Notes under the pieces: model-generated
What the model saw: the letters and a program-made list of their open reading frames with translations, nothing else
Told to the model about the DNA's origin: nothing
Database searches by the model: none
Program-made: the position numbers and the translations under genes
Shown: positions 1,178 through 16,978 of the stretch, piece by piece
Numbering within the stretch: position 1 is the first letter of the stretch
Layout of the letters: each line of letters starts with the position of its first letter
DNA from: an uncultured Blautia sp.
GTDB taxonomy: Bacteria > Bacillota > Clostridia > Lachnospirales > Lachnospiraceae
DNA: 19,128 nucleotides
Direction of reading: 5' to 3'
NCBI GenBank assembly: GCA_900552095.1
Contig: URYM01000010.1
Span: 1 to 19,128, forward strand

Positions 1178-1206
1178 AAGATACCGCATTTTTTTATGGA
1201 TTGCAA
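1178..1206 (-). promoter_or_regulatory. Possible glnN promoter
   Basis: On the minus strand TTGCAA (1201-1206) and TATCTT (1178-1183) are separated by 17 bases. Each matches four of six consensus positions. The -35 lies inside the 3' end of the upstream gene. Weak, offered only because glnN is functionally unrelated to its upstream neighbour. Confidence 0.25.
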
Positions 1207-2231
1207 GGAAATTCCGACACGTTCTCCCTGGTGACTTTCCGGTAGGGAAGATAGATGGATTTTCCATTTTCCAGCTCCAGATCTCCCGCTCCCTGGCCCA
1301 GGCTCAGGGACACTGCCAGCTCCGCGATCACTTCCGCCTGTTTCTCCTTGTCATTGTAAACAGTGGCATACATACTGCCGTCCCGCACTGCCTGCAGCCC
1401 CTCCGCCGTCCCGTCAATGCCCAGAAAGACCGGAAGCGTGGACTCTGTATAATTCAGTTTTTTGTAGGCGTCGATAGCTCCCAGCGCCATGGCATCGTTG
1501 TTAGCCAGCACCAGCTCAATATCATTCTGATGCTGACCGATCATCTGCTCCATCCGGTTCTGCGCCTGAACCCGGTTCCAGTTGGCAATGCCGTAACTGA
1601 GCTTCTCCAGCTCAATCCCCTTGCTTTTCATCGTATCTACCGCATTCTCCGTTCGGATAATCGTATCCTGATGGCCCGGTTCTCCCTCCAGCACCACATA
1701 CTGGATCTTCCCGTCCCGGTTGCGGTCAATCTGCACATTCTCCCAGATCAGATCAGCTGCCAGCTCTCCCTGCAGACTGCCTGACTGACGGGCATCCGCC
1801 CCTACGTAATAAAGCTTCTCCCACTGTCTCAGGTCTTCTGCCACCGGTTCCCGGTTGAAGAAAATAACGGGAACATCCTTCTCCCTGGCCAGATCAATAA
1901 TCTCCGAGGCGCTGGCCCGGTCTACCAGGTTGACACAGAGCACATTGCAGCCCGCATCCAGCATTTCTTTCACCTGATCATCCTGGGTCCGCTGCGATCC
2001 GGCGGCTTCCCGCACGGTCACGGTAATATCCACCTTCTCACTCTCCCGTTCCTTCCATTCCTTTTTCAGACAGTTTAAAAGTTCTCCCAGATAGGTGTCC
2101 GTCTGATTGTAGTAAGTCACACCCACATAGATCTTTCCGTCTTCTCCCGGAGCCGGCTTCCCGCATCCCGCCAGGATTCCCGCCCCTGCAAGGAATACAG
2201 CCGCCCCTCTTAAAATCTGTCTTATCTTCAT
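1194..2231 (-). CDS. MglB-like glucose/galactose-binding lipoprotein, sensory cassette A
   Basis: A 345-residue extracytoplasmic sugar-binding lipoprotein of the Peripla_BP_4 family, in normal (unpermuted) domain order. Signal peptide with lipobox LAGC (Cys23). Aligning by eye to E. coli MglB, nearly all ligand contacts are present: D45 and Y47 (D14/F16), N126 in FFNREP (N91), H187, D189 and R193 in GHQDTIIR (H152/D154/R158), W218 (W183), N245 (N211), D273 (D236) and N293 (N256). The EF-hand-like calcium loop DRNRDGKIQ (169-177) and E239 also match. Glucose, galactose or a close pyranose is the likely ligand. The ATG follows AAAGGCGG and lies 15 bp after the preceding gene's stop. It is last in a regulator-kinase-binding protein-binding protein cassette, with no transport genes beside it, so a sensory role with the kinase at 3195-5075 is inferred; sharing the nearby MglA/MglC is also possible. 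Confidence 0.88.
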   Translation of the reverse strand: MKIRQILRGAAVFLAGAGILAGCGKPAPGEDGKIYVGVTYYNQTDTYLGELLNCLKKEWKERESEKVDITVTVREAAGSQRTQDDQVKEMLDAGCNVLCVNLVDRASASEIIDLAREKDVPVIFFNREPVAEDLRQWEKLYYVGADARQSGSLQGELAADLIWENVQIDRNRDGKIQYVVLEGEPGHQDTIIRTENAVDTMKSKGIELEKLSYGIANWNRVQAQNRMEQMIGQHQNDIELVLANNDAMALGAIDAYKKLNYTESTLPVFLGIDGTAEGLQAVRDGSMYATVYNDKEKQAEVIAELAVSLSLGQGAGDLELENGKSIYLPYRKVTRENVSEFPCNP

Positions 2232-2246
2232 CGCCCGACCGCCTTT

Positions 2247-3155
2247 CTACTGATTCATGGTAAAAAGCATATCCTGATTTTCCCGGGAAAACAGATTATC
2301 CCGCCGGATCGCCCGATGGGGAACTACCAGGTCTTCCATCTTATAAAAATAGTGATCCATCTTCTGTGCCAGCAGCGTCATACACTGATATCCCATTTGA
2401 AATCCGTCAGGAACTACAAGGCAGGACGCCCGGCCGGTATCCAGATAATAGACCGCCTCTGTAGAGTCCCCCATACCGTAGATCAGGGCGCCGTGCAGAT
2501 CATTTGCCGCGGCACACGCCCCCGCTCCTTCCATACTGCTGTCATCCAGAGCCACCACAAAATCCGCCGCTTCCTGCGCCTCCAGGAAAGCAGTGTCGCC
2601 GCCCTCAAAAGATCCTTCCACATGCCAGAGTACTTCAATTCCCGTTTCCTCCAGCGCTTCCAGCACCCCGTCCATTCTCCGTGCCGCCGCTTCTGAATCT
2701 TCCTGTGCAGACACAAATCCCAGCGTCTTCCCCTCCAATCTGCCGCCATAATCTTTCAGGAGTTCTTTCCCCAGCGTGACTCCCATCTCATAATGATCCG
2801 GCTCCACACTGGCGAAACGGCCATTTTTTTCTTCCACCGGCTCGCCGGTAAATACAGCCGGGATCTTCGTCCCGGAGAGAAGTTCTTCCGGATCCCCTCC
2901 CGGAACTGCCAGAAGGATCAGTCCGTCTGCCCCCAGCGCCGTCTCCTCTTCAATCAGTTCTCTCTCTTCTTCTTTGCTTCCTATGTTCCCCGTGCTCACC
3001 ACGGAGAGCTCGATCCCCTGGTCTTCCGCCGCCATCTTAAGTCCGTACTTAAAAGCAGCCCACTGATTGTCCTCAGAATTGGGGATCACCACCGATACCC
3101 GGTACCTCTCCCCTGTTTCCCGCTCCCGGAACATCATAAGAGCCAGAGCCAGCAC
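2247..3155 (-). CDS. Membrane-anchored sugar-binding-like protein, cassette A; start apparently frameshifted
   Basis: Periplasmic-binding-protein fold (Peripla_BP_4/BP_1 type), about 300 residues, with the usual opening (SVVIPNSEDNQWAAFKYGLK) and strand-loop segments such as ADGLILLAVPG, TLGFVSAQED, ADFVVALDDSS and IYGMGDSTEA. It lacks the MglB calcium loop and the GH-D-R ligand motif, so its ligand is unknown. The given start is a GTG with a poor ribosome site that leaves only a stub of the membrane anchor. The frame is open upstream to 3195, encoding KTYLLIEAILGILVLALALM, a good transmembrane anchor, but without an ATG. An ATG with a good GGGGGAAGG site lies at 3208-3206, overlapping the kinase end exactly as in cassette B, but is one base out of frame. 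One extra A in the A6 run (T6 at 3191-3196) would give MKNGKKTYLLIEA. Read as a real gene with an N-terminal sequence error or a genuine disruption. Confidence 0.8.
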   Translation of the reverse strand: MLALALMMFRERETGERYRVSVVIPNSEDNQWAAFKYGLKMAAEDQGIELSVVSTGNIGSKEEERELIEEETALGADGLILLAVPGGDPEELLSGTKIPAVFTGEPVEEKNGRFASVEPDHYEMGVTLGKELLKDYGGRLEGKTLGFVSAQEDSEAAARRMDGVLEALEETGIEVLWHVEGSFEGGDTAFLEAQEAADFVVALDDSSMEGAGACAAANDLHGALIYGMGDSTEAVYYLDTGRASCLVVPDGFQMGYQCMTLLAQKMDHYFYKMEDLVVPHRAIRRDNLFSRENQDMLFTMNQ

Positions 3156-3194
3156 CAGAATTCCCAGAATAGCTTCTATTAAGAGATAGGTTTT

Positions 3195-5075
3195 TTACCG
3201 TTTTTCATCTTTGCCTTCCCCCGATTCTTCTGCTTCTGTCAGATCTGCTCTGCCGGGCATGCGCCCTTTCTCCAGGATCGTCCGGTTCTCTTCTGTGCAG
3301 AAAACTGCCGGAAAACGAATCGATACCCGGGTTCCCTCATCCGGCTCGCTCTCTATAAAAAGTCCATACTCCCTCCCAAAAAGCAGACGGATCCGGTTGT
3401 TCACATTGATAAGCCCCACACCGGAACCTTTTTTTTCCACCCGCGGAGTATCCGTCAGCAGAAGTCCTACCTCCTCTTCCGACATGCCGATCCCATTATC
3501 TTCCACGGCAAGAAGAATACAGCCTTCCCGCAGCTCTCCCGTCACCCGGATCCTGCCACAGTCATCTTTTCCGCTCACACCGTAATTGATTGCATTTTCC
3601 AGAATGGGTTGAAGGATCAGTTTCACCGTACAGTAATTTTCTATCTCCGGATCGATCTCATATTCTACGGAGAAAGAATCTTTGTACCGGATCTTCTGGA
3701 TATTCATATAGCTTCTGGCATGCTGCAGCTCATCCCGCACAGGAATTACAGTCCTCCCTTTAGAAAGACTGATCCGGAACAGTTTTGCCAGCTGCGACAC
3801 CATAAAGGCAGCCGCGTCATTCCGCTCTCCTTCAATCATCCATACAATAGATTCCAGTGTATTATAAAGGAAATGGGGATTGATCTGACTCTGCAGGGCA
3901 TCCAGCTCACTCTTCCGCCTCTCGGTCTGCTCCAACACGATCTTTTTCATCAGCATATCGATCTGCTCGTAAGAATCCTGGATGGAATGCCCCAGATGCC
4001 GGATTTCCCTGGAACCGCCGATATAAATTTCCGGTTTCTCTCCGGCCTCGTATTCCACCACAGAATCATTCAGCTTCAGGATCGGGCTTGAGATCCGCAC
4101 GGAGATCACCCGGTTAATGATCACCAGCATCATCGCCATCAGAAGCATCAGCATCAGGATAAAATACCGCATCCCCACCATACCCAGCGTAAAAGCCTCG
4201 TAGGGGATCACTCCCACCAGCTTCCACCCCGTATAACCGATCGTGTTGACCAGCACCTTCCGGTGAACGCCCTCAAACGTCTCGTCATAGACGCCGTCCT
4301 TATATTCCGCTGCCGCCGCGCTGTTCTCCCTGCTGATCCCCTCGCTGATCTGCATCTGCCGGTTGTGATAGATAATCTGCCCATTGCTGTCACAGAGATA
4401 ATAATACTGCCCGTTGGTAAAGGTATTGATCTGCTTCATCATCCGGGAAATGCTGGAATAATCCATATCCACCAGAAGGATGCCCAGCTGAGGCACCCCG
4501 TTCTCCGTAATCTCCACTGCCCGGCTCAGAGAAACCACCCAGTGATAGCGAAAGGCCGCATCTTCAAAGAGATTCTGGATGTGCGGTACAGAAAAATGCA
4601 TATTTTCCACTTCATCCATGGCCTGCTGATACCACTCCTGCCTGGTCACATCGGGATTTTCCTTCTGCGCCGCCACCGGCTCCGCCGCCATCAAACTTCC
4701 GTAATTATTATACACGGCAATGCTGCGCAGCTTATCTCTGTTCGCCTCATAGAGAAGATTCATCCCTCTCTGGATATTCTTGTCCTGACTGGCAAAATCG
4801 CTTTCTTTTATTACGTTATAGTAAACCGCATCTGAGATCTGCCGCATACTGAGCAGATAATCCTCCAGTTTTTCTCCGGTCTGCTCCATCAGATTCCGAC
4901 TGCTCTGGATCACTTCCTGCCGGGAAGAAACCGAAAAAGCCACATACATCACCGTTCCCAGGATCAGCATGATCGCTGTGGAAATCACCGTAAATGCAAT
5001 CATGATCGTGGTCTGCATTCCCTTTGGATTCACCCGCTTCAGGCGTTCTATCATTTTATGCTTCACTTGTCCCAT
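3195..5075 (-). CDS. YesM-type sensor histidine kinase, cassette A
   Basis: A 626-residue membrane kinase that should phosphorylate the regulator encoded immediately upstream. Order: short cytoplasmic N-terminus, TM1 (about 22-47), extracellular dCACHE sensor (about 50-295) ending in GYTGWKLVGVIP, TM2 (about 300-322), HAMP, His_kinase domain with His401 in QSQINPHFLYNTL, and HATPase with N-box QPILENA (489-495), DNGIGM (526-531) and GSGVGL (550-555). A charged tail of about 35 residues follows the ATPase domain and is absent in the cassette B paralogue. I chose the ATG at 5075: it has AGGACGGAGT before it, overlaps the regulator's end by 20 bp, and gives MG at the N-terminus as in the paralogue. 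An ATG at 5054 is the alternative. Two binding-protein genes follow, suggesting the dCACHE domain may sense them rather than, or besides, a free ligand. Confidence 0.92.
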   Translation of the reverse strand: MGQVKHKMIERLKRVNPKGMQTTIMIAFTVISTAIMLILGTVMYVAFSVSSRQEVIQSSRNLMEQTGEKLEDYLLSMRQISDAVYYNVIKESDFASQDKNIQRGMNLLYEANRDKLRSIAVYNNYGSLMAAEPVAAQKENPDVTRQEWYQQAMDEVENMHFSVPHIQNLFEDAAFRYHWVVSLSRAVEITENGVPQLGILLVDMDYSSISRMMKQINTFTNGQYYYLCDSNGQIIYHNRQMQISEGISRENSAAAAEYKDGVYDETFEGVHRKVLVNTIGYTGWKLVGVIPYEAFTLGMVGMRYFILMLMLLMAMMLVIINRVISVRISSPILKLNDSVVEYEAGEKPEIYIGGSREIRHLGHSIQDSYEQIDMLMKKIVLEQTERRKSELDALQSQINPHFLYNTLESIVWMIEGERNDAAAFMVSQLAKLFRISLSKGRTVIPVRDELQHARSYMNIQKIRYKDSFSVEYEIDPEIENYCTVKLILQPILENAINYGVSGKDDCGRIRVTGELREGCILLAVEDNGIGMSEEEVGLLLTDTPRVEKKGSGVGLINVNNRIRLLFGREYGLFIESEPDEGTRVSIRFPAVFCTEENRTILEKGRMPGRADLTEAEESGEGKDEKR

Positions 5076-6666
5076 ACTCCGTCCTGTACTTGGAAGGCGA
5101 TACCCCGAATTTCCGCTTAAATACATAGCTGAAATAATTGGGATCACTGTAGCCTACATGCTTTGCTATGATATAACTCTTCTCGTTCGTCTCGATCAGG
5201 AGTCTGGATGCCCGCTCCATCCGGTAATCTGTCAGATAACCGATAAACGTACTGCCGGTCTCCTTCTTGAAGATGGTGGAAAAATAAGAGTTAGAAACTC
5301 CCAGGAATTCACAGATACTGTCCAGGGACAGATCTTCATCCGAATAATTATTGCGTACATACTCCCTGGCTTTGGAGACAAAGGACTGGGTCGAACGGCT
5401 TCTGGCCCGCAGCAGACGCTCATGAAAGGCAAAGCTGATATTCATAATCCATTTTTTCAGGCTCTGCGGTCCCAGATCCAGCAGTTCCCCGTACAGCTTT
5501 CGCATATCGCTGGAAAACTCGTCCACCGAAATCTCATTGTTGGAGGCGAAACGGTACAGCGCACTGACCAGATTCATCACCTCAATGTGATACTGCTGCA
5601 GCGACTTTTCCTGCAGCGCCAGATGGCTCCAGTAGCTTTCCACCGCCTCTTCGATCTCTTCCCGATCATTCAGACGGATTGCCTTAAACAGGTTGGACAG
5701 CTCTGTGTCGTCTGTATCATCTGACTTTTTCATTTCCTGGGGAGCAATCTCCTTCATATTGATTGCCTTTCCGGTTCCATAGATCACCCGATAGGAAACT
5801 GCTTCCCTGGCGCTGGTATAGGAAGATGCAAGATCCAGTACCCGGCTGCAGACCTGGCCGATCCCCACCGTGACAACTGCTCCGATCATCCTTCCCACAT
5901 AACCACAGAACCGGTCGCAGTCGTCTGTCAGATCTGACACCTCGTTCTCATTGGAAAGCTGGGCCAGGAGTACAGTATTCCCCAGGTAAGAGAAACATTT
6001 CGCCCTCCATCTCTCCCCCAGACGCTCCTGCACCTGCTTCTGCACTGCCGTAGCCAGAAGCAGGGGATTCATATTCTCCGGTACCTGACTGGACGAAGTG
6101 TGTACCACAAGGCAGCAGAAAAAAGGCCCCTCAAAAACCAGCTGATAATCCTCCAGAAATTTGGGCAGCTCATCTTCATGGATTCTTCCCTCGATCAGTG
6201 TGGAATAAAAATTTGCCTGGAGAAGCGGCAGAGAATCCAGATAATATTTCTGCAGAATCTCCGCATTCCTCTTTTCACTGATCTCCTGATCCAGCTTCTC
6301 CTTCAGATGGGCAAAAACCCTCTTCAGTTCCATGGAGTTGACCGGTTTTAAAATGTACTCCTCGATCTCAAGATGAACTGCCTCCTTTGCATACTCAAAA
6401 GCATCAAAGCCGGTGAGCAGCAGGATTTTTGTGGCAGGAAATTTCTCCTTGATATGCCCGGACAGTTCCATCCCATCCATATAAGGCATCTTGATATCCG
6501 TCATAACCACATCCGGCTGAAATTCTTCTACCATCTCCAGAGCCTTAACTCCGTTGTTGGCATAACCGATCACAGAAAATCCCAGCTCTTCCCAATCTAT
6601 TTTTTTCATGATGATCTGGATTACTTCTTCCTCATCATCCACCAAAAGTACCGTATACCTATCCAT
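5056..6666 (-). CDS. YesN-type response regulator (REC + AraC HTH), cassette A
   Basis: A 536-residue transcription factor. The receiver domain (about 1-120) has acidic pocket D10/D11, phospho-acceptor D57 in MTDIKMPYMDG, T85 and K107 in YILKPV. A long helical middle region follows. The C-terminal AraC/XylS DNA-binding domain (about 430-530) contains LSLDSICEFLGVSNSYFSTI and HVGYSDPNYFSYVFKRKFGV, the two helix-turn-helices. ATG at 6666 follows GGAGAAAAAGG. It opens the cassette, overlaps the kinase start by 20 bp, and has an extended -10 promoter 50 bp upstream, directly beyond the mglC terminator. Probable targets are the mglB promoter and its own operon; this is inferred from position only. 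Confidence 0.93.
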   Translation of the reverse strand: MDRYTVLLVDDEEEVIQIIMKKIDWEELGFSVIGYANNGVKALEMVEEFQPDVVMTDIKMPYMDGMELSGHIKEKFPATKILLLTGFDAFEYAKEAVHLEIEEYILKPVNSMELKRVFAHLKEKLDQEISEKRNAEILQKYYLDSLPLLQANFYSTLIEGRIHEDELPKFLEDYQLVFEGPFFCCLVVHTSSSQVPENMNPLLLATAVQKQVQERLGERWRAKCFSYLGNTVLLAQLSNENEVSDLTDDCDRFCGYVGRMIGAVVTVGIGQVCSRVLDLASSYTSAREAVSYRVIYGTGKAINMKEIAPQEMKKSDDTDDTELSNLFKAIRLNDREEIEEAVESYWSHLALQEKSLQQYHIEVMNLVSALYRFASNNEISVDEFSSDMRKLYGELLDLGPQSLKKWIMNISFAFHERLLRARSRSTQSFVSKAREYVRNNYSDEDLSLDSICEFLGVSNSYFSTIFKKETGSTFIGYLTDYRMERASRLLIETNEKSYIIAKHVGYSDPNYFSYVFKRKFGVSPSKYRTEYGTSEA

Positions 6667-6799: not shown

Positions 6800-8449
6800 T
6801 TATTTTTTCTGAACGTATTTCAGACAGTCAAGCGTTACTGCTACCAGAATGATAATACCGGAGAATACGAACTGCAGGTTCGTATCGATACCCAGGATCG
6901 TCAGAGAGTAGGTCAGAGCGGTGAAGATCAGCACACCGACAACAACTCCGGAGATCTTACCGATACCACCGGTAAAGGATACGCCGCCAACTACGCAGGC
7001 TGCGATCGCGTCAGTCTCCCAGCCCTGTCCATAAGCTGCAGAACCGGAACCAACCATTCTCGCACACTCCAGCCAGGAACCAAATCCGTAAAGGATACCG
7101 GCCAGGATGAAGGCGCCGATTGTCACACGGAATACAGAAATACCGGAAACGGCTGCTGCCTCCGGGTTTCCGCCGACTGCATACAGATTTTTACCAAAGG
7201 TAGTCTTATTCCAGATAAACCATACAATAGCAACTGCTGCCACTGCCCAGATAATGATGGTCGGGAAACCATTTACCTTGGGAATGATCATGTTGGGGAT
7301 CGTCGGCTCAATCGCACCGAAGGATACACCCTTGGTCGCATAAGTAACAAGACCGAAGATCATCAGCATGTTTGCCATCGTGGAAATAAACGGATGCATC
7401 TTAAATTTCGCGGTAAAGAATCCTGCGATGGAAGTAAAGAAGGTACACAGCACGATACAGACTACCAGAGCCAGGATCATCTTTGCCACCGTAGACATGC
7501 CGGTAAAATCAAATACATGACCGAACACGGCACCGGTATTGATTCCCTGATGCATGATGATCGTAGCTGCCGTCATACCCATACCAACCATACGTCCGAT
7601 GGAAAGGTCGGTACCAGTCAGCAGGATCAGTCCGGCAACACCCAGAGCCAGGAACATTCTCGGGGAAGCCTGCTGCAGAATGTTCAGCACGTTATTGTAG
7701 GTCAGAAGGGGAGATCCCTTCACAGCCGGCGTGATGATACAAAGTGCGATGAACACCAGAATAATTGCAATATACAGACCATTCTTCAGAAGGAAATTTC
7801 TGCGGTTGAATGTATATTTGTAGTTCTCCCACTTCTGTGCCCTTGTCTCCATGAAAGTGAACTTGGACATCCTGAGCAGGTCGATCAGATGATAGCGATG
7901 CGCAAAAGCCGCATGGCGTCTGTCTTTAATCTGCTGATAATCCTTCTCCAGCTCCATCTTCGCATCGAAAAGACGGTTCTTGTAAACATACTTCTCATCT
8001 TTGATTTCCTGATGATCGGTAAGTTTCGCGCTGGTTGCCTGATGCTCCTTTTCCAGCTCGGCGATTCTCTTCTGATATTTTTCTTTCGCCAGAACCTTCT
8101 CCTGATCGCAGCTTTCTTTCACCTTCTGATAATAATCTTTGTCAAAATGCTCTTTTAAATAAGCTTCCGCATCCGCAATCAGCCTGGAAACCTCATCCTT
8201 GTGCTGTGCTTCCACAGCTTTGGCCTGATCTACCTCTTTGCGGAGTTTTCCGATAATATCTTCTTTCTCCGGTTTTGTGTAGTTCCGGTCTCTCTTGATT
8301 CCGTCAATACGGTTCTGCAGAGCAACGACTTTATCTGTACCGTCTACTCTGAGACTGTCAATTTTTTCCTGAATTTTTCCGACATAATCGTCGATCGGCT
8401 GACGCAGCTTCCGCTCTTCTTCAGCCGTAAGAATCTTACTGTTAGCCAT
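6800..8449 (-). CDS. mglC: MglC-like galactose/glucose ABC permease with large N-terminal coiled-coil extension
   Basis: Membrane subunit of a CUT2-type sugar importer. The last about 330 residues (from about 220, starting LLKNGLYIAIILVFIALCII) are a standard MglC/RbsC permease with multiple TM segments and the blocks GVAGLILLTGTDLSIGRMVG, GGNPEAAAVSGI and ACVVGGVSFTGGIG. E. coli MglC is about 336 residues; this one is 549. The extra about 220 N-terminal residues are very hydrophilic, rich in K, E, D and Q, have no signal or TM segment, and look like long helices or coiled coil (for example RIAELEKEHQATSAKLTDHQ). I chose ATG at 8449 because GGAG lies 10 bp upstream; a GTG at 8458 sits too close to it. 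It follows mglA by 18 bp and is the last gene before the terminator. Confidence 0.92.
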   Translation of the reverse strand: MANSKILTAEEERKLRQPIDDYVGKIQEKIDSLRVDGTDKVVALQNRIDGIKRDRNYTKPEKEDIIGKLRKEVDQAKAVEAQHKDEVSRLIADAEAYLKEHFDKDYYQKVKESCDQEKVLAKEKYQKRIAELEKEHQATSAKLTDHQEIKDEKYVYKNRLFDAKMELEKDYQQIKDRRHAAFAHRYHLIDLLRMSKFTFMETRAQKWENYKYTFNRRNFLLKNGLYIAIILVFIALCIITPAVKGSPLLTYNNVLNILQQASPRMFLALGVAGLILLTGTDLSIGRMVGMGMTAATIIMHQGINTGAVFGHVFDFTGMSTVAKMILALVVCIVLCTFFTSIAGFFTAKFKMHPFISTMANMLMIFGLVTYATKGVSFGAIEPTIPNMIIPKVNGFPTIIIWAVAAVAIVWFIWNKTTFGKNLYAVGGNPEAAAVSGISVFRVTIGAFILAGILYGFGSWLECARMVGSGSAAYGQGWETDAIAACVVGGVSFTGGIGKISGVVVGVLIFTALTYSLTILGIDTNLQFVFSGIIILVAVTLDCLKYVQKK

Positions 8450-8467
8450 ATCCGTCACACTCCCTCA

Positions 8468-9976
8468 CTATAAGTACTTTGCACTGAGCCTTAACAGCTC
8501 TTCCTGGTCTGTCTCTTTCGTATTGACAATTCCAGAAAGACGTCCGTTGGACATAACACCAATGCGGTTGGTAATTCCCAGAATCTCCGGCATCTCAGAA
8601 GAAACAACGATGATCGTCTTTCCCTGTTTTGCCATATTGATGATCAGCTCATAGATTTCATACTTGGCGCCGACATCAATTCCACGGGTAGGCTCATCCA
8701 TCATGAATACCTGCGGTCCTCTCTCCAGCCATTTTCCGAAGATAACCTTCTGCTGGTTTCCTCCGGACAGACTGGAAATCATATCCTCCGGACCCATACA
8801 TTTTGTATGCATGATCTTAATTTCATTTGCAGTTGCTTTTACCATCTTCGCATCAGAGAGTGCTACACCGGATTTATAACTGTTCAGGTTCGCAATCGTC
8901 GTATTGAAGGTAAGGTCCCCTTTCAGGAAAAGGCCGTTGGCCTTTCTTTCCTCCGTGATCATGGCAAAACCATGCTCCATCGCTTCTTTTGCACTGCTGA
9001 AGTTTACCAGACGGTTGTTGAAATACACCCGGCCCGCCGCTCTTGTGCGGACGCCGAAAATAGTTTCCAGAAGTTCGGTACGGCCGGCGCCTACCAGCCC
9101 GTACAGTCCGAAAATCTCACCTTCTCTTACATCGAAGGTAACGTCCTGCAAATGAGGCTCATATTTGGTGGACAGATGCTGAACGGAGAGAATCACATCC
9201 TTCGGAGTATTGTCAACCGGCGGGAAACGATTTTCCAGAGAACGGCCTACCATGGCTGCGATCAGCTCATTCATGTCCGTCTCTTTGGAACTCTTCGTCA
9301 TAACCAGGTTTCCGTCACGAAGTACGGAGATCTCATCACAGATCTCAAAAATCTCATCCATTTTGTGAGAAATGTAGATCAGGGAGATTCCCTGTTCTTT
9401 TAACATGCGCATCATCTCAAAGAGCTTGTCAACCTCCTGCACCGTCAAGGAAGAGGTCGGCTCGTCGAGAACGATAACTTTTGAATTATAGGAAATTGCC
9501 TTGGCGATCTCACACATCTGGCGCTGTGACACAGACATATTCCGCATCGGCTGGGTGAGGTTTACTGTCATGCCCAGTTTACGAAACAGTTCGGAGGCCT
9601 CTTTCTTCATCCGCCCCTCGTCGATCACGCCCATAGAATTGACCGGATAACGTCCAAGGAATAAATTGTCGATTACATTGCGCTCCAGACACTGATTCAG
9701 CTCCTGATGCACCATCGCGATCCCGTTTTCAAGAGCATCCTTCGGTCCGGAAAAATTTACTTCCTTTCCATCCAGGAAGATATTTCCTTCATCTTTCTGA
9801 TACGTACCGAAAAGGCATTTCATCATCGTTGATTTACCGGCGCCATTTTCCCCCATAAGTCCCATAACCGTTCCGCGCTTCACATCCAGATTGATGTGAT
9901 CCAGAACCCGGTTCCGGCCGAAGGACTTGCTCATACCGCGTATCGATAAGATGATATTATCGTTCTTATCTGTCAT
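8468..9976 (-). CDS. mglA: MglA-like sugar ABC transporter ATPase (duplicated ATPase domains)
   Basis: Cytoplasmic energising subunit, 502 residues, the normal size for CUT2 tandem ATPases. Domain 1: Walker A GENGAGKST (42-50), signature MSVSQRQMCEIAKAI and Walker B VIVLDEPTSSL. Domain 2 has the degenerate Walker A usual in this family (GLVGAGRTELLE), an intact signature LSGGNQQKVIFGKWL and Walker B VFMMDEPTRGIDVGA. ATG at 9976 follows CAGGAG. It is separated from mglB by 142 bp of structured sequence, which probably lets the binding protein be made in excess. The substrate class (galactose/glucose/methyl-galactoside) follows from the partner proteins rather than the ATPase itself. Confidence 0.95.
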   Translation of the reverse strand: MTDKNDNIILSIRGMSKSFGRNRVLDHINLDVKRGTVMGLMGENGAGKSTMMKCLFGTYQKDEGNIFLDGKEVNFSGPKDALENGIAMVHQELNQCLERNVIDNLFLGRYPVNSMGVIDEGRMKKEASELFRKLGMTVNLTQPMRNMSVSQRQMCEIAKAISYNSKVIVLDEPTSSLTVQEVDKLFEMMRMLKEQGISLIYISHKMDEIFEICDEISVLRDGNLVMTKSSKETDMNELIAAMVGRSLENRFPPVDNTPKDVILSVQHLSTKYEPHLQDVTFDVREGEIFGLYGLVGAGRTELLETIFGVRTRAAGRVYFNNRLVNFSSAKEAMEHGFAMITEERKANGLFLKGDLTFNTTIANLNSYKSGVALSDAKMVKATANEIKIMHTKCMGPEDMISSLSGGNQQKVIFGKWLERGPQVFMMDEPTRGIDVGAKYEIYELIINMAKQGKTIIVVSSEMPEILGITNRIGVMSNGRLSGIVNTKETDQEELLRLSAKYL

Positions 9977-10118: not shown

Positions 10119-10358
10119 TTACTGAGTCAGCAGAGAGGTGTAAGAAGCTGCATTGTCTGTCTTAACCATGTTGATTGCGAATGCATCATAGCCATCCGGA
10201 TTTCCAAGACGGTTGGTGATGTTGGACTCGGTCTGTCCGTCGCCGCCGATGTACTCAACTTCCAGGTTCAGCAGATCATCGTAGTTCTGCAGCAGCGGCT
10301 GATAGGTGGAGCTTAAGAAGTTATCAGCTGCGTTGTAGATGTTCAGCCATACTTTCTT
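10119..10358 (-). other. Transposed N-lobe segment of MglB (permuted part)
   Basis: These 79 codons plus stop encode the strand-helix units that begin every normal MglB: the ligand loop YNAADNF, a second strand followed by DGQTESNI (compare SQNDQSKQN), and DAFAINMVKTDNAAS (compare KALAINLVDPAAAG). The cut falls between the third helix and the fourth strand of the N-terminal lobe. Confidence 0.8.
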
Positions 10359-11441
10359 AGTTGCATGTTTGCTCTCATCCAGCTGGTTGGATACCGGCTC
10401 ATAAACCTTGGTGGAATCCAGGAAATCTTTGTAGTTGTCAGCGGTAACTGCAACGTTTAATGCATAGTAAGAACGCTGCTCTTCATTGTAGGTGTATACG
10501 TCTTCGCTCAGAACGTTTCCTGCATCGTCAGCGGTACCGATACCGGTATCGATATCAACGCCATCCAGTGCGTTACGCAGAACACGCAGAGTTAAGTAAG
10601 CCTGAACGTCAGCATGCTGGCTGATGGTTCCGCCGTAACCGTCTGCAATTGCTGCCACTGCGTCATTGTTTGCATCGTATCCGAAGGTGGGAATCTTGTT
10701 ATCTTTGGACCATGCGTTGAACATGGACATTCCCATACCGTCGTTATTGGAAACAACAACATCGATCTCATCGCCGAAGGAAGAAGACCAGGTTCCGATG
10801 GTATTGCCTGCAGTTGCTGCATCCCAGGTAGCTCCTGCGGAGTTCTTCATCTCCTGAGAAGCCAGCTCACGTACTACGTATTTCTTTCCGTTTACTTCCA
10901 GGGTTCCGTCCTGTACTGCGGTTGCACTTCCGTCAGCGTTGGTTCCTACCGGCTCGCTGTTGATGTTGCCGTCTTTCTCAACAGCAGTTCCCAGAGCTTT
11001 ACGAACACCTCTGGTACGGGCGATGGAGTCGTTATGTCCGATATCACCGATTGCCAGAACGTAACCGATCACGCCGTCTTTGTTGCGGTCGATGGTATCA
11101 ATGTTCTGCTCCAGGTACTCTTTTACCATGGTTCCCTGCAGCTCAGCACCCTGATTTGCATCAAATCCCACATAATATGTATTCTCGTTGAAGTTCAGCG
11201 CCGTCATATCCAGTTCTCCGGTGGAGCTGTTGGAAGGCTGACGGTTGAACCATACCAGCGGTTTGTCCTTGTTTGCCACATCTCCGGAAGCTGCATCGTC
11301 TTTTGCAGCGTCATCCTTTGCCTCATCTTTTGCGGCATCATCTTTCTTAGCATCATCCTTTCCGGAATCGCTGGAACCACATGCAGTAACAGAAAGTCCC
11401 AGAACTGCTGCCATTGTCAGTAAAGCCAGTTTTTTCTTCAT
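10119..11441 (-). CDS. mglB: MglB: apparently circularly permuted galactose/glucose-binding lipoprotein
   Basis: Extracytoplasmic receptor of the MglABC importer, 440 residues from ATG 11441 (GGGAG 10 bp upstream). Lipobox VTAC with Cys21, then a D/K/A-rich linker. The binding domain starts at about residue 60 with KPLVWFNRQP, which matches E. coli MglB residues about 86-93 (VPVVFFNKEP); everything that should precede it is absent. It continues in family order: calcium-like loop DRNKDGVIG (118-126), GHNDSIAR (H136, D138, R142), an approximately 40-residue insert, W206, SNNDGM (N233), FGYDAN (D256), and the usual C-terminus. After a linker (about 350-361) comes KVWLNIYNAADNFLSSTYQP and DAFAINMVKTDNAASYTSLL, matching the E. 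coli N-terminus (IYKYDDNFMS..., ALAINLVDPAAAGTVIEKA). D373 and F375 replace D14/F16. N256 is replaced by Q275. One uninterrupted frame, so it is not a split gene. Confidence 0.93.
   Translation of the reverse strand: MKKKLALLTMAAVLGLSVTACGSSDSGKDDAKKDDAAKDEAKDDAAKDDAASGDVANKDKPLVWFNRQPSNSSTGELDMTALNFNENTYYVGFDANQGAELQGTMVKEYLEQNIDTIDRNKDGVIGYVLAIGDIGHNDSIARTRGVRKALGTAVEKDGNINSEPVGTNADGSATAVQDGTLEVNGKKYVVRELASQEMKNSAGATWDAATAGNTIGTWSSSFGDEIDVVVSNNDGMGMSMFNAWSKDNKIPTFGYDANNDAVAAIADGYGGTISQHADVQAYLTLRVLRNALDGVDIDTGIGTADDAGNVLSEDVYTYNEEQRSYYALNVAVTADNYKDFLDSTKVYEPVSNQLDESKHATKKVWLNIYNAADNFLSSTYQPLLQNYDDLLNLEVEYIGGDGQTESNITNRLGNPDGYDAFAINMVKTDNAASYTSLLTQ
11289..11360 (-). repeat. mglB: D/K/A-rich repeat in the MglB lipoprotein linker
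   Basis: Encodes imperfect copies of KDDAA/KDEA between the lipid-anchored cysteine and the binding domain. At DNA level the unit is about 15 bases (gcatcatctttcttag-like on the plus strand). Probably a flexible spacer lifting the receptor off the membrane. Confidence 0.6.
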
Positions 11442-11652: not shown

Positions 11653-12675
11653 CTATCTACATTCTACCGAATCTTCCCGGCTTTTTATCTCCCAGGGTAT
11701 CCAAACTTTCTTCCCGTCCGTATCCATCTCCCCCGGAAGTTCCTCTCCTCGGGCCAGGTTCAGGGACATCTCAATCAGTGCCCCCGCGTAACCTTCCCGG
11801 TCCGCACTCACAGTCCCGAGAAGTTCTCCCTTCTCCACCGCCGCCAGCGCTTCCTCTGTCCCGTCAATCCCCACCACGCCGATTTTTGGTCCGCTCTCTT
11901 TTTTCAGCGTATCCAGAACCCCCAGCGCCATGTCGTCGTTATTACAGATAAAAAGTTCAATCTGATCCCCATACAGAGACAGCCACTGCTCAGACAGGGC
12001 CGCAGCCTGATCCCGCTCCCAGTCCGCCACACCGCTCTCTGTCATCTGCCAGGGAACCCCCGCCTCTTCCAGACTGCGGATCACCCACTCCGTCCGGATC
12101 ACAGCATCCTGATGTCCCCGCTCTCCTTCCAGAAGTGCAAAAGAGAGGACACCGTCCCCGTTCAGATCCAGCTCCTCTCTGTTCTCTTCCCAGGCCTCCG
12201 CGATCATGCGCCCCTGCAGCCTGGCAGACTCCTGAGCGTCGGAACCCACATAATAAATATCTTCTCCCCGATAAAGATCGTCATCCACCGGTTCCCGGTT
12301 AAAAAAGATCAGCGGCACCTCCGCTTCCATGGCCAGATCCACCATCCGCCCCACGTCAGTTCTGTCTACCGCATTTACACAGATCACATCATATCCCAGG
12401 GAGAGAAAACGCTCCACCTGTTCATCCTGATCATTCTGACTGTTCTTGGCGGAAACGATATTTAAAAGCGCCTCCCCGGCATAGTTCTCCTGAAAAAGCT
12501 GTTTCATCTCCGCCACAATGGAATTAATATAGGTATCATCGTCCCGGTAAATACTGACTCCCACTTTCAGCCGCTCCGGCATCTTCTCCGCGCCTCTGCA
12601 TCCGGCCAGCAAAAAGGGAGCGGCCGCCCAGACCATACCGGCTCTGAACAGAATTCTTCTTTCGTTTCTCTCCAT
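11653..12675 (-). CDS. MglB-like sugar-binding lipoprotein, sensory cassette B
   Basis: A 340-residue extracytoplasmic lipoprotein with normal MglB order. Lipobox LAGC (Cys26). Ligand residues by alignment to E. coli MglB: D47 and Y49, N126 in FFNREP, H188, D190 and R194 in GHQDAVIR, W219, N246 and D271. The calcium loop DLNGDGVLS (170-178) and E240 are present. The position of E. coli N256 is A291 (TVSAD), unlike the cassette A paralogue, so the ligand or affinity may differ. ATG at 12675 follows GAGGAAACGAA and lies 9 bp after the preceding stop. It ends the cassette 211 bp before mglB. It could serve sensing, transport or both. Confidence 0.88.
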   Translation of the reverse strand: MERNERRILFRAGMVWAAAPFLLAGCRGAEKMPERLKVGVSIYRDDDTYINSIVAEMKQLFQENYAGEALLNIVSAKNSQNDQDEQVERFLSLGYDVICVNAVDRTDVGRMVDLAMEAEVPLIFFNREPVDDDLYRGEDIYYVGSDAQESARLQGRMIAEAWEENREELDLNGDGVLSFALLEGERGHQDAVIRTEWVIRSLEEAGVPWQMTESGVADWERDQAAALSEQWLSLYGDQIELFICNNDDMALGVLDTLKKESGPKIGVVGIDGTEEALAAVEKGELLGTVSADREGYAGALIEMSLNLARGEELPGEMDTDGKKVWIPWEIKSREDSVECR

Positions 12676-12684
12676 TTCGTTTCC

Positions 12685-13590
12685 TCACCCAATCGGGAAC
12701 AGCACATATTCATATTTCCCGTACGCATCCTCCGGACGAACAGAAATGCTCTCCTGCTCCACATATGTTTCCTGCCATTTTCCTTCCAGACGGCGGATCG
12801 TATAATAAACCGCCTGGTATCCCATATCATACTCATTAACCAGAACAAGCCCCTCGATCTGCCCTTCTGCCAGCGCTTCGGCAATCCTGTCATTATATCC
12901 CAGCCCGTACAGCGCCGTTCCTTCCGGTTTCAGATCCAGCAGCTCTTCCATCCCGTCCGGATCCAGAACTGCCGCGCTCCCCTCCTGCACTTCTGAAACC
13001 CGGCTGCATTTCCGGAACCCGATCCCGTTTTCTGAAAGTTCCTCCATGAGAGCCTTGCAGACGGTCTGCACGTTTTTATTTCCCCACTGTGTGCTGAATA
13101 TCTGAACGCGCTCCCCTTCTCCCAGATCCTCCTGCAGAAGATGAGCCAGCCGCCCGCCCATTGTCCTGTAATCTACTGCGATCTTGCAGTATCCGGCTAC
13201 GCTGGTCCTGATATTTCCCATGAGAAGCACCGGCGTCCTCTGATTAATCTCGCGGATCCAGTCGTTCTCCTCCTCATCCAGAGAAGCCAGGATAAGAATT
13301 GCCTCGGCTCCATTTTCCTGAGCCCGGCGCGCAGCCGCCTCATAATCCGTCTTTCCGTTCCGAACCGAAGCGGTCTCATAATAAATATCCGCATTTTCTG
13401 TCCGGGCAGCCTGATCGATCCCCTTCCGGTAGATCTGATACCTACTGTCATTTTCATCCTGAATCACAGAAATCGTATAGATTTCCTCTCTCTCCTCCTC
13501 AAAAAACAGATCCGTGGAGGAGAGCAGAAACAAAAAGCCCACCACTGCCAGTCCCAGCAGGATCACTTTCCACTCCCTACGCCTCTTCAT
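12685..13590 (-). CDS. Membrane-anchored, divergent sugar-binding-like protein, cassette B
   Basis: 301 residues: KRRREWK, then one TM segment (about 8-24, VILLGLAVVGFLFLLSS), then a periplasmic-binding-protein fold (YTISVIQDENDSRYQIYRKG; GAEAILILASLD; TPVLLMGNIRTS; LYGLGYNDRIAEALAEGQI; GLVLVNEYDMGYQAVYYTI). There is no lipobox, calcium loop or MglB ligand motif. It is the positional counterpart of the anchored protein at 2247-3155 and is much diverged from it. ATG at 13590 overlaps the kinase 3' end by 14 bp and follows GAGAGG, indicating translational coupling. The overlap suggests it is made with the kinase and may be its membrane partner; ligand unknown. Confidence 0.82.
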   Translation of the reverse strand: MKRRREWKVILLGLAVVGFLFLLSSTDLFFEEEREEIYTISVIQDENDSRYQIYRKGIDQAARTENADIYYETASVRNGKTDYEAAARRAQENGAEAILILASLDEEENDWIREINQRTPVLLMGNIRTSVAGYCKIAVDYRTMGGRLAHLLQEDLGEGERVQIFSTQWGNKNVQTVCKALMEELSENGIGFRKCSRVSEVQEGSAAVLDPDGMEELLDLKPEGTALYGLGYNDRIAEALAEGQIEGLVLVNEYDMGYQAVYYTIRRLEGKWQETYVEQESISVRPEDAYGKYEYVLFPIG

Positions 13591-15367
13591 TGATCATCCT
13601 CTCATATTCCACAGCCGGCTGGGTCAGCGTAACCACCGTCCCCTCATCCAGCTCCGTATCAATTGCAAGCCCGTAATCCTCCCCGAAATACAGGGCGATC
13701 CGCTCATTTACATTACGCACGCCGATCCCAGATCCCTTTCCGGAGGGGCTTATCTTTCCCCTGCGCAGGTCTTCCAGACGATCCGGCGGAATCCCCAGTC
13801 CATTGTCCTCCACCTGCAGGATCAGGCTGCCCTCTTCCTGATAGGCACGGATCCAGATCTCGCCGTCCCCGTCCTGATACTGCACCCCGTAGGCGATGGC
13901 ATTCTCTACCAGCGGCTGGAGGATCAGTTTCAGGGTTGCCAGATTCTCCACTTCTTCCTGAATCTCGAAATGGTACTGGAATTTATTCTTGTGCCGCATC
14001 ATCTGAATGGTCAGATAACTTTTCACATGTTCCAGTTCCTCCCCCACAGAGATGATCGTTCTTCCGCCGGAGAGACCAATGCGGAAAAATCTGGCCAGTG
14101 CCGTAAGCGCCTGCACCGCATCCTCTTTTTTCTCATTTTGTACCATCCAGATCACAATATCCAGTGTATTATACAGGAAATGGGGATTGATCTGAGACTG
14201 CAGAGTATTCAGCTCATTTTTTCTCTGGATCTCATGCTCCCTCTCTGCCTGCTCCATCAGCCGGTGCAGTTCCACTGCCATCTGCTTTACGCTTCGGCTT
14301 AAATGCCGCAGCTCATAACAGCCCTTTTCCCGTATCACCGCATCAAAATTTCCTCCCTCGATTTCCTTGAGGGCGATTTCCAGACGGCTGATCGGATCAG
14401 TTACCCGGTCCGAGATAAACCCGTTGATCATCCCCAGCCCTATGATAAAGAGAAGAGCTACGGCCACCAGGGACAGCACGCTCTTTGGCGAAATCAGCGT
14501 CGTGTACCAGCCCTCCGTCACACTCACCAGCTTCCACCCTGTATAGCCGATCGTCTTAACCGCCGTCATTCGCCGTTCTCCCTGAAATTTCCCGTTATAG
14601 ACACCGTCGCTGTAGCCCGCTGCCTCCAGATTATCCTCCTTTACTTTTCCATTTAAGATCATCTGGTGGCTGGGATGATAAATAATCTCACCGCTCCGGT
14701 CTGTCAGATAAACATAAGAAGCGCTGCCCGGAGAAATACTGGTGATCATCCTGGCAATGGCATCGTAGGAGAGATCGATCAGGAGAACTCCTTCTTCCAG
14801 CTGTCCGTTTTCCTTGATCTGTACCGCCTGGCTGATCGAGATCACCCAGTTGTAGGAGTGATCCCGGTGCACAAAAAGTTTCTGCACATGCGGCAGGGAA
14901 AAATGCATATTTTCCGGCTGCTCCACAGCATTTTGAAACCATTCTTCTTCTGCCGCGTGCACCCCTTCCCGGAGAGTAGCCGCCGGCGCTTTTGCCAGCA
15001 TCTCCCCATCCTTGCGGAAAAGGACGATATTCTGGATATAATTTTTATTGCTGTCGTAGATCAGACGAAATTTCTCTTCCATATCTGTCCTGGCCAGATC
15101 ATTTTCCTTCAGAACAGAGTAAGACAGCGTATCTGATATCTTCATCATATTCCGCAGTGTAGCCGTCAGCGTATAACTCACCTGCTCCAGCAGCGCCTGG
15201 CTCTGTACGGAAGCCACATACTCCAGCTGACTAGTAAAGCGCTGATAGAAAGAAGAGCCAATGAGCACCGCACAGGATATGGCCGCAATACTGAATGCCA
15301 TCCAGATCACGGAGCGCAGCCGCATTCTGGCATAAATCTTCTGACATTTTTCCCATATCTTTCCCAT
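13577..15367 (-). CDS. YesM-type sensor histidine kinase, cassette B
   Basis: A 596-residue membrane kinase. TM1 about 20-40; dCACHE sensor about 45-290 with blocks shared with the cassette A kinase (ENMHFSLPHVQKLF, YNWVISISQAVQI, GYTGWKLVSV); TM2 about 296-316; HAMP beginning at DRVTDPISRLE; His396 in QSQINPHFLYNTL; N-box QPLVENA (484-490); DNGLGI (521-526); GKGSGIGV (543-550). The start ATG directly abuts the regulator stop codon (TAG-ATG), and the 3' end overlaps the next gene, so the four genes are tightly coupled. The cognate partner is the regulator at 15368-16978. The conserved sensor blocks suggest that both kinases detect similar partners. Confidence 0.94.
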   Translation of the reverse strand: MGKIWEKCQKIYARMRLRSVIWMAFSIAAISCAVLIGSSFYQRFTSQLEYVASVQSQALLEQVSYTLTATLRNMMKISDTLSYSVLKENDLARTDMEEKFRLIYDSNKNYIQNIVLFRKDGEMLAKAPAATLREGVHAAEEEWFQNAVEQPENMHFSLPHVQKLFVHRDHSYNWVISISQAVQIKENGQLEEGVLLIDLSYDAIARMITSISPGSASYVYLTDRSGEIIYHPSHQMILNGKVKEDNLEAAGYSDGVYNGKFQGERRMTAVKTIGYTGWKLVSVTEGWYTTLISPKSVLSLVAVALLFIIGLGMINGFISDRVTDPISRLEIALKEIEGGNFDAVIREKGCYELRHLSRSVKQMAVELHRLMEQAEREHEIQRKNELNTLQSQINPHFLYNTLDIVIWMVQNEKKEDAVQALTALARFFRIGLSGGRTIISVGEELEHVKSYLTIQMMRHKNKFQYHFEIQEEVENLATLKLILQPLVENAIAYGVQYQDGDGEIWIRAYQEEGSLILQVEDNGLGIPPDRLEDLRRGKISPSGKGSGIGVRNVNERIALYFGEDYGLAIDTELDEGTVVTLTQPAVEYERMINEEA

Positions 15368-16978
15368 CTACTGCTTCCCTTTATGATAGCGGCTGGGCGA
15401 TACGCCAAACTGCCGTTTAAACACATAACTGAAATAATTCGGCTCTGTATAGCCTACTTTTCCCGCAATCACATACGTTTTATCATCGGTAGTGTTCAGA
15501 AGTTCCACCGCCTTTTTCATTCTCACTTCCGTGAGATATGTGCTGTAATTCTTGCCTGTTTCTTTCTTAAACATCATAGAAAAATAAGAAGGGCTTAAAT
15601 GAAATTCCTGACAGAGAACTTCCACAGACAGATCCGGCCTGGCATAATTTGCCTCGATGTACTCCTGAGCCTCCCGGATCAGAGTATTGCAGTTTCCCTC
15701 TCTCTGGCAGACCAGCTGCTGATGGATCTTCGTACACAGCCGGTTAAAGTAAGCCTTCAGTTCGTGGCTGGTGCGCAGTTCCAGAAGCTCGCCGTAGAAA
15801 TTTTCTCCCGTTCCAAAAAGTGCCTTCTCATCCAGTTCATACCGCCATACCAGCTTCATAAGCGTATTCAAAAGCGTTACGCTGTAGCTCTGGGACTGTC
15901 TCCAGTAAACCTTGTCATCCCCCATCTTATCGATCAGGGCATTGACCTGCTCCTCAATTTCCTTTTCCTCGCAGAACTTCAGGGCATGGAACAGATTTCC
16001 TTCCTCCTGCCCGCTCAGGGAGAGCACCTGTCTCTTCTGCGGTTCCACATCTCGGATATAGATTGCCCGGTCTTCCCCCAGCACCACGCGGTACTCCAGA
16101 GCTTCCTTGGCTTCCCGGTAAGACTCTGCCAGTTCTTCCGGATTCTTCCTCGGATTTCCCAGGCCTGCCGTGACCTCCAGGGCAAAAACCTGACTGCACT
16201 CCCTCCCCGCCTGATTTAAAAGCGCCAGAAGTTCATTCATGGTCTGTCCTTTCTGCAGTGCGCAGATCAGCCCCAGTTCTTTCTGCCCGTTAAACAGGTG
16301 GCAGCAGAACTTTCCTTCCAGCAGTTCACGCACCACTTTTAGGACGGATACCTGCACCAGCTGCTGTTCCCACAGCCACCGGCTTTCTTCCTCCCGCCCC
16401 TTCTGACGATCCACGCAGATCAGCCCGGCCGTCCAGGCCTCTGCTTCCCGGAACCGGGGCAGATACTGTTTCATCAGGCGGGAAATCTCCCCTCCTGGAA
16501 TATTTCCCTCAACCCACTCGTTGACAAATTTCTCCCTTAAAACAGGATAAGCCCTCCGGTAACTTTCCCGCAGAGCATTCACATCCCTTTTTTCTTCTAA
16601 TTCCCGGTCAATAGAATCCCTTAATTTCTGCAGAACCGCCGTGAGTTCTCCGATATTGATCGGTTTTAAGATATATCCGGTCACCCCCAGCCGGATTGCC
16701 TGTTTCGCATACTCAAATTCATCATACCCGGAAAAGAGAACAACCTTTTTCTCCGGGTATTCTTTCTGCAGCGCCTCGGCCAGCTGCAGACCATCCATAT
16801 AGGGCATCTGAATATCCGTGATCACCACATCCGGTTCCAGCGAGGTCACTTTTTCCAGCGCCTCCCTGCCGTTCTCCGCCTCCCCGGCAATCTCAAATCC
16901 CAGGGCGTTCCAGTCCATCAGCTTAACAATACTTTTTCTTACTTCTTCTTCATCATCTACAAATAAAATCTTGTACAT
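15368..16978 (-). CDS. YesN-type response regulator (REC + AraC HTH), cassette B
   Basis: 536 residues, the same length as its paralogue at 5056-6666. Receiver domain with D8/D9, phospho-acceptor D55 in ITDIQMPYMDG, S83 and K105 in YILKPI. Helical linker region in the middle. C-terminal AraC HTH pair (LSVEVLCQEFHLSPSYFSMM and KVGYTEPNYFSYVFKRQFGV). ATG at 16978 has only a weak ribosome site (GAAG about 5 bp upstream). It starts 39 bp after the lipid kinase gene and no convincing promoter lies in that gap, so it may be transcribed from the lipid kinase promoter. Confidence 0.93.
   Translation of the reverse strand: MYKILFVDDEEEVRKSIVKLMDWNALGFEIAGEAENGREALEKVTSLEPDVVITDIQMPYMDGLQLAEALQKEYPEKKVVLFSGYDEFEYAKQAIRLGVTGYILKPINIGELTAVLQKLRDSIDRELEEKRDVNALRESYRRAYPVLREKFVNEWVEGNIPGGEISRLMKQYLPRFREAEAWTAGLICVDRQKGREEESRWLWEQQLVQVSVLKVVRELLEGKFCCHLFNGQKELGLICALQKGQTMNELLALLNQAGRECSQVFALEVTAGLGNPRKNPEELAESYREAKEALEYRVVLGEDRAIYIRDVEPQKRQVLSLSGQEEGNLFHALKFCEEKEIEEQVNALIDKMGDDKVYWRQSQSYSVTLLNTLMKLVWRYELDEKALFGTGENFYGELLELRTSHELKAYFNRLCTKIHQQLVCQREGNCNTLIREAQEYIEANYARPDLSVEVLCQEFHLSPSYFSMMFKKETGKNYSTYLTEVRMKKAVELLNTTDDKTYVIAGKVGYTEPNYFSYVFKRQFGVSPSRYHKGKQ

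Follow-up and report, generated by a model that had tools for sequence, protein, structure and literature searches.

Our analysis revealed that the window, i.e. the whole stretch of 19,128 nucleotides analysed here (contig URYM01000010.1, assembly GCA_900552095.1, uncultured Blautia sp.), encodes a natural circular permutation of the sugar-binding protein MglB. The mglB gene lies at 10119-11441 on the minus strand and encodes 440 amino acids counted from MKKKLALL; an upstream ATG would extend the open reading frame to 11474 (451 amino acids). With a probability of roughly 0.95 we regard its product as the tethered sugar receptor of an Mgl-type (CUT2) ATP-binding cassette (ABC) importer, mglBAC, and as a Gram-positive member of the permuted class founded by TpMglB-2 of Treponema pallidum. 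An initial annotation of this DNA had recognised the permutation, correctly, from raw sequence alone and had asked whether it had been described before. It was in fact described in 2016 for TpMglB-2, with homologues in Gram-positive gut bacteria (Brautigam and others 2016, PMC4990184, cited here and below from the available part of its text). The permutation is thus real but already known, and a crystal structure, a class name and a Pfam family exist for it. The gene is made up of the following parts, given in the order in which they are read.

11379..11441, minus strand: signal peptide and lipobox, residues 1-21, from the sequence, with Cys21 as the lipidation site by inspection
11274..11378, minus strand: charged low-complexity tether, residues 22-56, from the sequence
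10542..11273, minus strand: MglB body from old strand 4 on, residues 57-300, with the rest of the N-lobe, the C-lobe, the Ca-loop 118-126 and ligand residues N66, H136, D138, R142, W206, N233, D256 and Q275 (Pfam, PDB alignments, hhalign, conservation)
10362..10541, minus strand: old C-terminal end and connector (fourth hinge of TpMglB-2), residues 301-360, collinear with TpMglB-2
10122..10361, minus strand: relocated N-terminal piece, residues 361-440, with old strands 1-3 and helices 1-3 carrying D373 and F375 (PF18610 full length, hhalign, AlphaFold2 secondary structure)

Pfam, alignments to PDB structures, profile-profile comparison and an AlphaFold2 model all agree on the permuted chain order. 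Peripla_BP_4 is found at residues 86-294 with only positions 94-256 of its 258-position profile, and PF18610 (Peripla_BP_7) matches over its full length (1-71 of 71, E 3e-42) at residues 361-431. The NCBIfam MglB model NF011924 hits the protein in two stretches with 96.8 bits and does not reach its curated cut-off of 420. The two other MglB-like lipoproteins of the window (1194-2231 and 11653-12675), which had been proposed as internal controls, do have the normal order: Peripla_BP_4 covers them with positions 1-256 and 1-258 of 258, and NF011924 matches each in one stretch (247.6 and 207.3 bits, likewise below the cut-off). In profile-profile comparisons residues 55-300 fall on canonical columns 134-332 (E 2e-31, hhalign probability 99.9%) and residues 355-440, as a profile of 60 rows, on canonical columns 48-129 (score 38.2, E 1.1e-5, probability 81.8%), the best score among 60 column-shuffled control profiles being 27.1. 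The match of residues 296-356 to the canonical C-terminal end is weak (probability 7%). The AlphaFold2 model ends with strand 362-368, helix 374-390, strand 393-399, helix 405-412, strand 420-424 and helix 428-439, and the new ends therefore fall after the third helix and before the fourth strand, as had been proposed. This model matches the permuted crystal structure 5JX2 end to end (357-365 residues aligned by VIA-align), and the three strands and three helices that normally open the N-lobe are relocated to the C-terminus, with a predicted sheet order taken from the 5JX2 superposition. At the other end of the protein, C21 is nearly invariant (at least 90%) across 60 aligned permuted rows, residues 1-52 have a predicted local distance difference test (pLDDT) score below 50, and the sequence following the tether begins at KPLVWFNRQP.

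The nine ligand residues named by the initial annotation are all present under the numbers it gave. N66, H136, D138, R142, W206, N233, D256, D373 and F375 correspond to E. coli N91, H152, D154, R158, W183, N211, D236, D14 and F16, and eight of them are identical in 60/60 rows, D138 in 59/60. This correspondence was made via the alignment to TpMglB-2 and agrees with the numbering in Table 2 of PMC4990184, against which the glucose-site residues of E. coli MglB are retained in both pieces of the permuted protein. At the tenth ligand position, E. coli N256, the permuted protein has Gln275 (60/60 rows) and TpMglB-2 has Gln215. A predicted EF-like Ca site is formed by D118, N120, D122 and D227, aligning with TpMglB-2 D71, N73, D75 and D166 and conserved in the 60-row alignment (N120 in 59/60). 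Among the ten ligand positions compared, both MglB-like paralogues in the window carry Tyr where Salmonella MglB has F16, and one also carries Ala at N256.

The crystal structure of TpMglB-2 has a circularly permuted fold with strand order 5-4-6-1-2-3, and the protein binds D-glucose, changing its conformation with domain closure (PMC4990184). According to the same source many homologues share this topology; they occur in treponemes and in bacteria that are mainly Gram-positive and include many gut commensals. 'Type Ic' or 'Cluster Bc' was proposed there as a class name for such permuted ligand-binding proteins. Residues 57-438 of the window protein are collinear with residues 19-385 of the 387-residue TpMglB-2 chain (phmmer, E 6.2e-89; 164 of 362 aligned residues identical, 45%), and the segment ahead of the relocated piece is collinear with the fourth hinge crossover region of TpMglB-2. 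Coverage exceeds 90% and the N-termini match, which is how PMC4990184 delimits Type Ic, there by BLAST and here by phmmer and VIA-align. A threshold of E 1e-10 retains 7728 of the 7996 database clusters scored against the window protein and 2642 of the 6328 candidates scored against TpMglB-2; both Pfam families are present in the 120 matches listed for each query, and the legible organism names among the TpMglB-2 matches listed are Treponema. Among the open-access papers listed in our searches we found a description of this permuted family in PMC4990184 alone; PF18610 is named once, within a list, in PMC9602780.

We calculated a maximum-likelihood tree with the pieces set in ordinary order from 50 rows, comprising 16 of the 60 permuted rows, TpMglB-2, 32 of 73 ordinary rows and Salmonella MglB. 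A branch with 100/100 support separates the 17 permuted from the 33 ordinary rows and places the window protein on the same side as TpMglB-2. The simplest reading of these sequences would be a single origin of the permutation. Both paralogues from the window fall within the ordinary set, and the permuted protein is thus not recently derived from them. Tandem duplication followed by trimming is a standard model for the origin of such a permutation. No duplication intermediate was seen in four examined relatives (P0001, P0004, P0013, P0062) from the 120 listed of the 7728 matches; the oversized P0001 (525 amino acids) and P0004 (479 amino acids) have repeats within the body, probably assembly artefacts, and no doubled N-terminal piece.

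The importer genes and the genes on both sides of them are listed here.

8468..9976, minus strand: mglA, importer ATPase, 502 amino acids (NCBIfam MglA PRK10982, E 2.8e-201, 669.5 bits, cut-off 828)
7802..8458, minus strand: helical arm at the N-terminus of mglC, covering about residues 1-219, which goes with permuted MglB and is absent from the ordinary systems sampled
6803..7801, minus strand: mglC membrane core, residues 220-552 (NCBIfam MglC PRK09478, E 6.4e-80, 269 bits, cut-off 386; Pfam BPD_transp_2)
1194..2231, minus strand: MglB-like lipoprotein with canonical chain order, part of sensor cassette 1 and used as an internal control (Pfam, NCBIfam)
2247..6666, minus strand: response regulator, dCache histidine kinase and second binding protein of sensor cassette 1 (Pfam)
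11653..12675, minus strand: MglB-like lipoprotein with canonical chain order, part of sensor cassette 2 and used as an internal control (Pfam, NCBIfam)
12685..16978, minus strand: response regulator, dCache histidine kinase and second binding protein of sensor cassette 2 (Pfam)

The permuted mglB forms an operon with MglA and MglC genes, as expected for an Mgl-type importer, both partners scoring under their NCBIfam equivalog cut-offs. The arm of MglC is predicted to fold into helices 12-37, 41-56, 62-145, 149-196 and 202-216 in a model built from the window protein and 52 further rows (long form in 40 of all 53; mean pLDDT 85.4, predicted template modelling score 0.62), with block pLDDT values of 88-93 over residues 11-190 and lower values near the join, and its location is presumably cytoplasmic. 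A Foldseek search with this model gave no match at E <0.001, the best being 2QI9 BtuC at 4.8e-3, and none was obtained at E 0.1 when MglC was compared with PDB sequences. A database search with residues 1-215 scored 7982 candidates, 7014 of them at E 1e-5; a permease domain is present in 118 of the 120 arm matches listed and missing from the other two, which are short proteins. The extended MglC was not found described in the open-access papers listed, as judged by titles and the starts of abstracts.

For the distribution of both features we drew genomes evenly from the family (299), class (391) and phylum (398) around the Claveliimonas bilis locus L016, in partly overlapping samples; the family we take to be Lachnospiraceae. 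PF18610 is present in 32, 4 and 2 of these genomes, respectively. The four class-sample genomes (L016 and L152-L154, two of which recur in the phylum sample) all have collinear permuted proteins, and no ordinary-order protein with PF18610 was met among these four, the remaining matches not having been searched for one. With MglC residues 1-221 as query, the arm of about 215 amino acids matches 36 of the 299 family genomes, namely all 32 PF18610-positive ones, two of them partially at contig ends (G606, 34 residues; G646, 86 residues), and four marginal ones (G620, G675, G441 and G434, E 8e-5 to 1e-3), which we take to be chance coiled-coil matches. At E 1e-70 the MglC core was found in 31 of the 299 genomes, every one PF18610-positive; the PF18610-positive genome without a core match is G646, where the arm match ends at the contig edge. 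A genome-contig scan confirmed at least 539 permuted loci, and among the best 80 of these a complete MglC of 508-563 amino acids lies downstream in 70 (five at the shorter end, 508-516), four are cut by a contig end, two are broken and four show none in the stretch. NF011924 matches 32 of 100 genomes of the same family at E 1e-30; we examined 20 regions around such matches and found ordinary MglB, MglA and MglC together in 15, the ordinary MglB of L194 being truncated by a contig end. None of these 15 operons has an MglC with the 215-residue arm, since there is no room for it and no alignment beyond its last few residues; 13 MglC proteins have 328-356 amino acids and two have 409-410. The latter (L186:6988-8217 and L187:9991-11223) carry an unrelated N-terminal extension of about 80 amino acids that is membrane-spanning in appearance. 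Of the fifteen, L201 belongs to genome G449, which also has a permuted system, and we excluded L070, where a 332-residue MglC adjoins MglA besides the permuted system and no ordinary MglB was seen in the stretch.

Two further loci deserve mention. L020, from a record titled Bacteroidales, encodes a permuted MglB 83% identical to that of the window and is probably a mislabelled or mis-binned contig. At L152:8639-12027 (minus strand, genome G1026) a permuted MglB, 58% identical to that of the window, directly follows genes for GGDEF and HD-domain (HD_5) proteins on the same strand, with no MglA or MglC in the 18 kb examined; the best MglC-like match in G1026 has 37% identity over part of the core. 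This lone cousin may be a sugar receptor for cyclic di-GMP (c-di-GMP) enzymes or signalling. We found no such case in the open-access literature, where its gene setting was not itself a search subject.

A reading without permutation, by which the protein would be an MglB fragment minus the start of its N-lobe with an unrelated C-terminal add-on domain, could draw on the low pairwise similarity of the C-terminal piece to MglB and on the separate Pfam family name of this piece. We give it practically no credence, given the profile match of the piece to just the missing N-terminal columns with the alternative match at noise level, the position of D373 and F375, conserved in 60/60 rows, at D14 and F16, and the full-length fold match to a permuted crystal structure. 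Several points nevertheless weigh against a permuted importer receptor. In plain pairwise comparison the best local match of the C-terminal piece does fall on the N-terminus of both window paralogues, but 87/500 and 4/500 shuffles, respectively, score equally high, and even its profile match reaches just the probability given above. The tree comes with a warning of long branches and is rooted arbitrarily, and L026, an ordinary row on a very long branch, joins it on the permuted side. The permuted relative at L152 has no adjacent MglA or MglC and may not be part of an importer, and both the sugar bound and its transport are steps that we infer.

Why an importer receptor should be permuted has two proposed answers. 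The initial annotation had suggested that the permutation could prevent cross-talk with the sensory kinases, so that it would be an adaptation insulating the receptor from kinases that use ordinary MglB-like proteins. A kinase lies downstream in 55 of the best 80 permuted loci, and in 49 of these 80, as in the window, together with an ordinary MglB-like gene; an upstream cassette like the second one of the window occurs in six, some loci being cut short. However, 25 of the 80 show no downstream kinase in the stretch examined, for some because of contig ends, and in the same family ten of the 15 ordinary-MglB operons (L186-L195) adjoin a full cassette of response regulator, histidine kinase, binding protein and MglB, while L199 and L204 have just a kinase and a regulator, and no kinase is seen in the stretch at L198, L200 and L201. 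The cassettes are therefore not peculiar to importers with a permuted receptor; this argues against the cross-talk idea, and we regard insulation as very improbable. That the lipid tether leaves the N-lobe from another place, as also claimed, is a consequence of the topology. PMC4990184 mentions it too and suggests that, with the tethered N-terminus moved away from the ligand site by the permutation, anchoring puts no strain on sugar binding. The same source adds that these proteins are probably tethered in most organisms that have the permuted type, and that after permutation the N-terminus is near one ligand residue rather than two. Ordinary-order MglB-like proteins of lipoprotein appearance are, however, encoded in the same window, so that tethering does not require permutation, and we consider this explanation possible but rather doubtful.

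The chain starts at the old fourth N-lobe strand and then passes through the C-lobe, a connector of about 60 residues would cross the hinge for a fourth time, and the old first three strands and helices then close the N-lobe. The folded, probably lipid-anchored receptor would be a bilobed trap that closes on D-glucose or D-galactose, both pieces contributing ligand side chains, and from which the sugar would be handed to MglC, with MglA driving transport. The flanking cassettes would sense sugar via their own ordinary MglB-like proteins. It is tempting, if unlikely, that permuted receptor and enlarged permease form one co-adapted importer type, in which the arm could regulate or scaffold the transporter, the rotated receptor might be matched to the permease, and the L152 branch might have been recruited to c-di-GMP enzymes. 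Arm and permuted MglB are encoded by neighbouring genes inherited together, so that their association alone shows no functional link, and the coupling may reflect only shared descent from one ancestor.

In the survey the permutation travels together with an enlarged MglC within a single importer lineage. Ordinary MglB serves the same operon layout elsewhere, and hence neither tethering nor neighbouring sensors seem to force it. The arm of MglC and the lone cousin are the parts that we did not find in print in the open-access literature, and the arm is a concrete, testable lead.

The two paralogous cassettes flanking the importer (1194-6666 and 11653-16978, minus strand) each hold a second, divergent Peripla_BP_4 protein between the kinase and the MglB-like gene (2247-3155 and 12685-13590, minus strand), i.e. 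two binding proteins per kinase. XylFII-LytS-YesN is presumably a comparable three-component sugar sensor. The window cassettes resemble CuaDSR, a sugar sensor of solute-binding protein, histidine kinase and response regulator (PMC10384115, available part), in that their extracellular binding proteins are paired with a His_kinase/dCache kinase and a regulator of AraC type. In contrast to sensors of this type, they have two binding proteins each, and their members are the ordinary MglB-like proteins, not the permuted MglB. The ordinary MglB/GGBP of E. coli and Salmonella (NF011924; 2FVY, 1GCA) shares ligand residues, Ca loop, two-lobed fold and MglA/MglC partners with the window protein, but has an unrotated chain order. 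TpMglB-2 (Tp0684; PDB 5JX2/6BGC/6BGD) has the cut point, fold, ligand and Ca residues in common with it, and likewise a connector ahead of the relocated piece and the role of a lipoprotein of an Mgl-type importer. The window protein differs from TpMglB-2 in having Asp at residue 373 (like E. coli D14) instead of Asn311, 14 extra residues in the stretch after residue 152, and sensor cassettes on the flanks of its gene.
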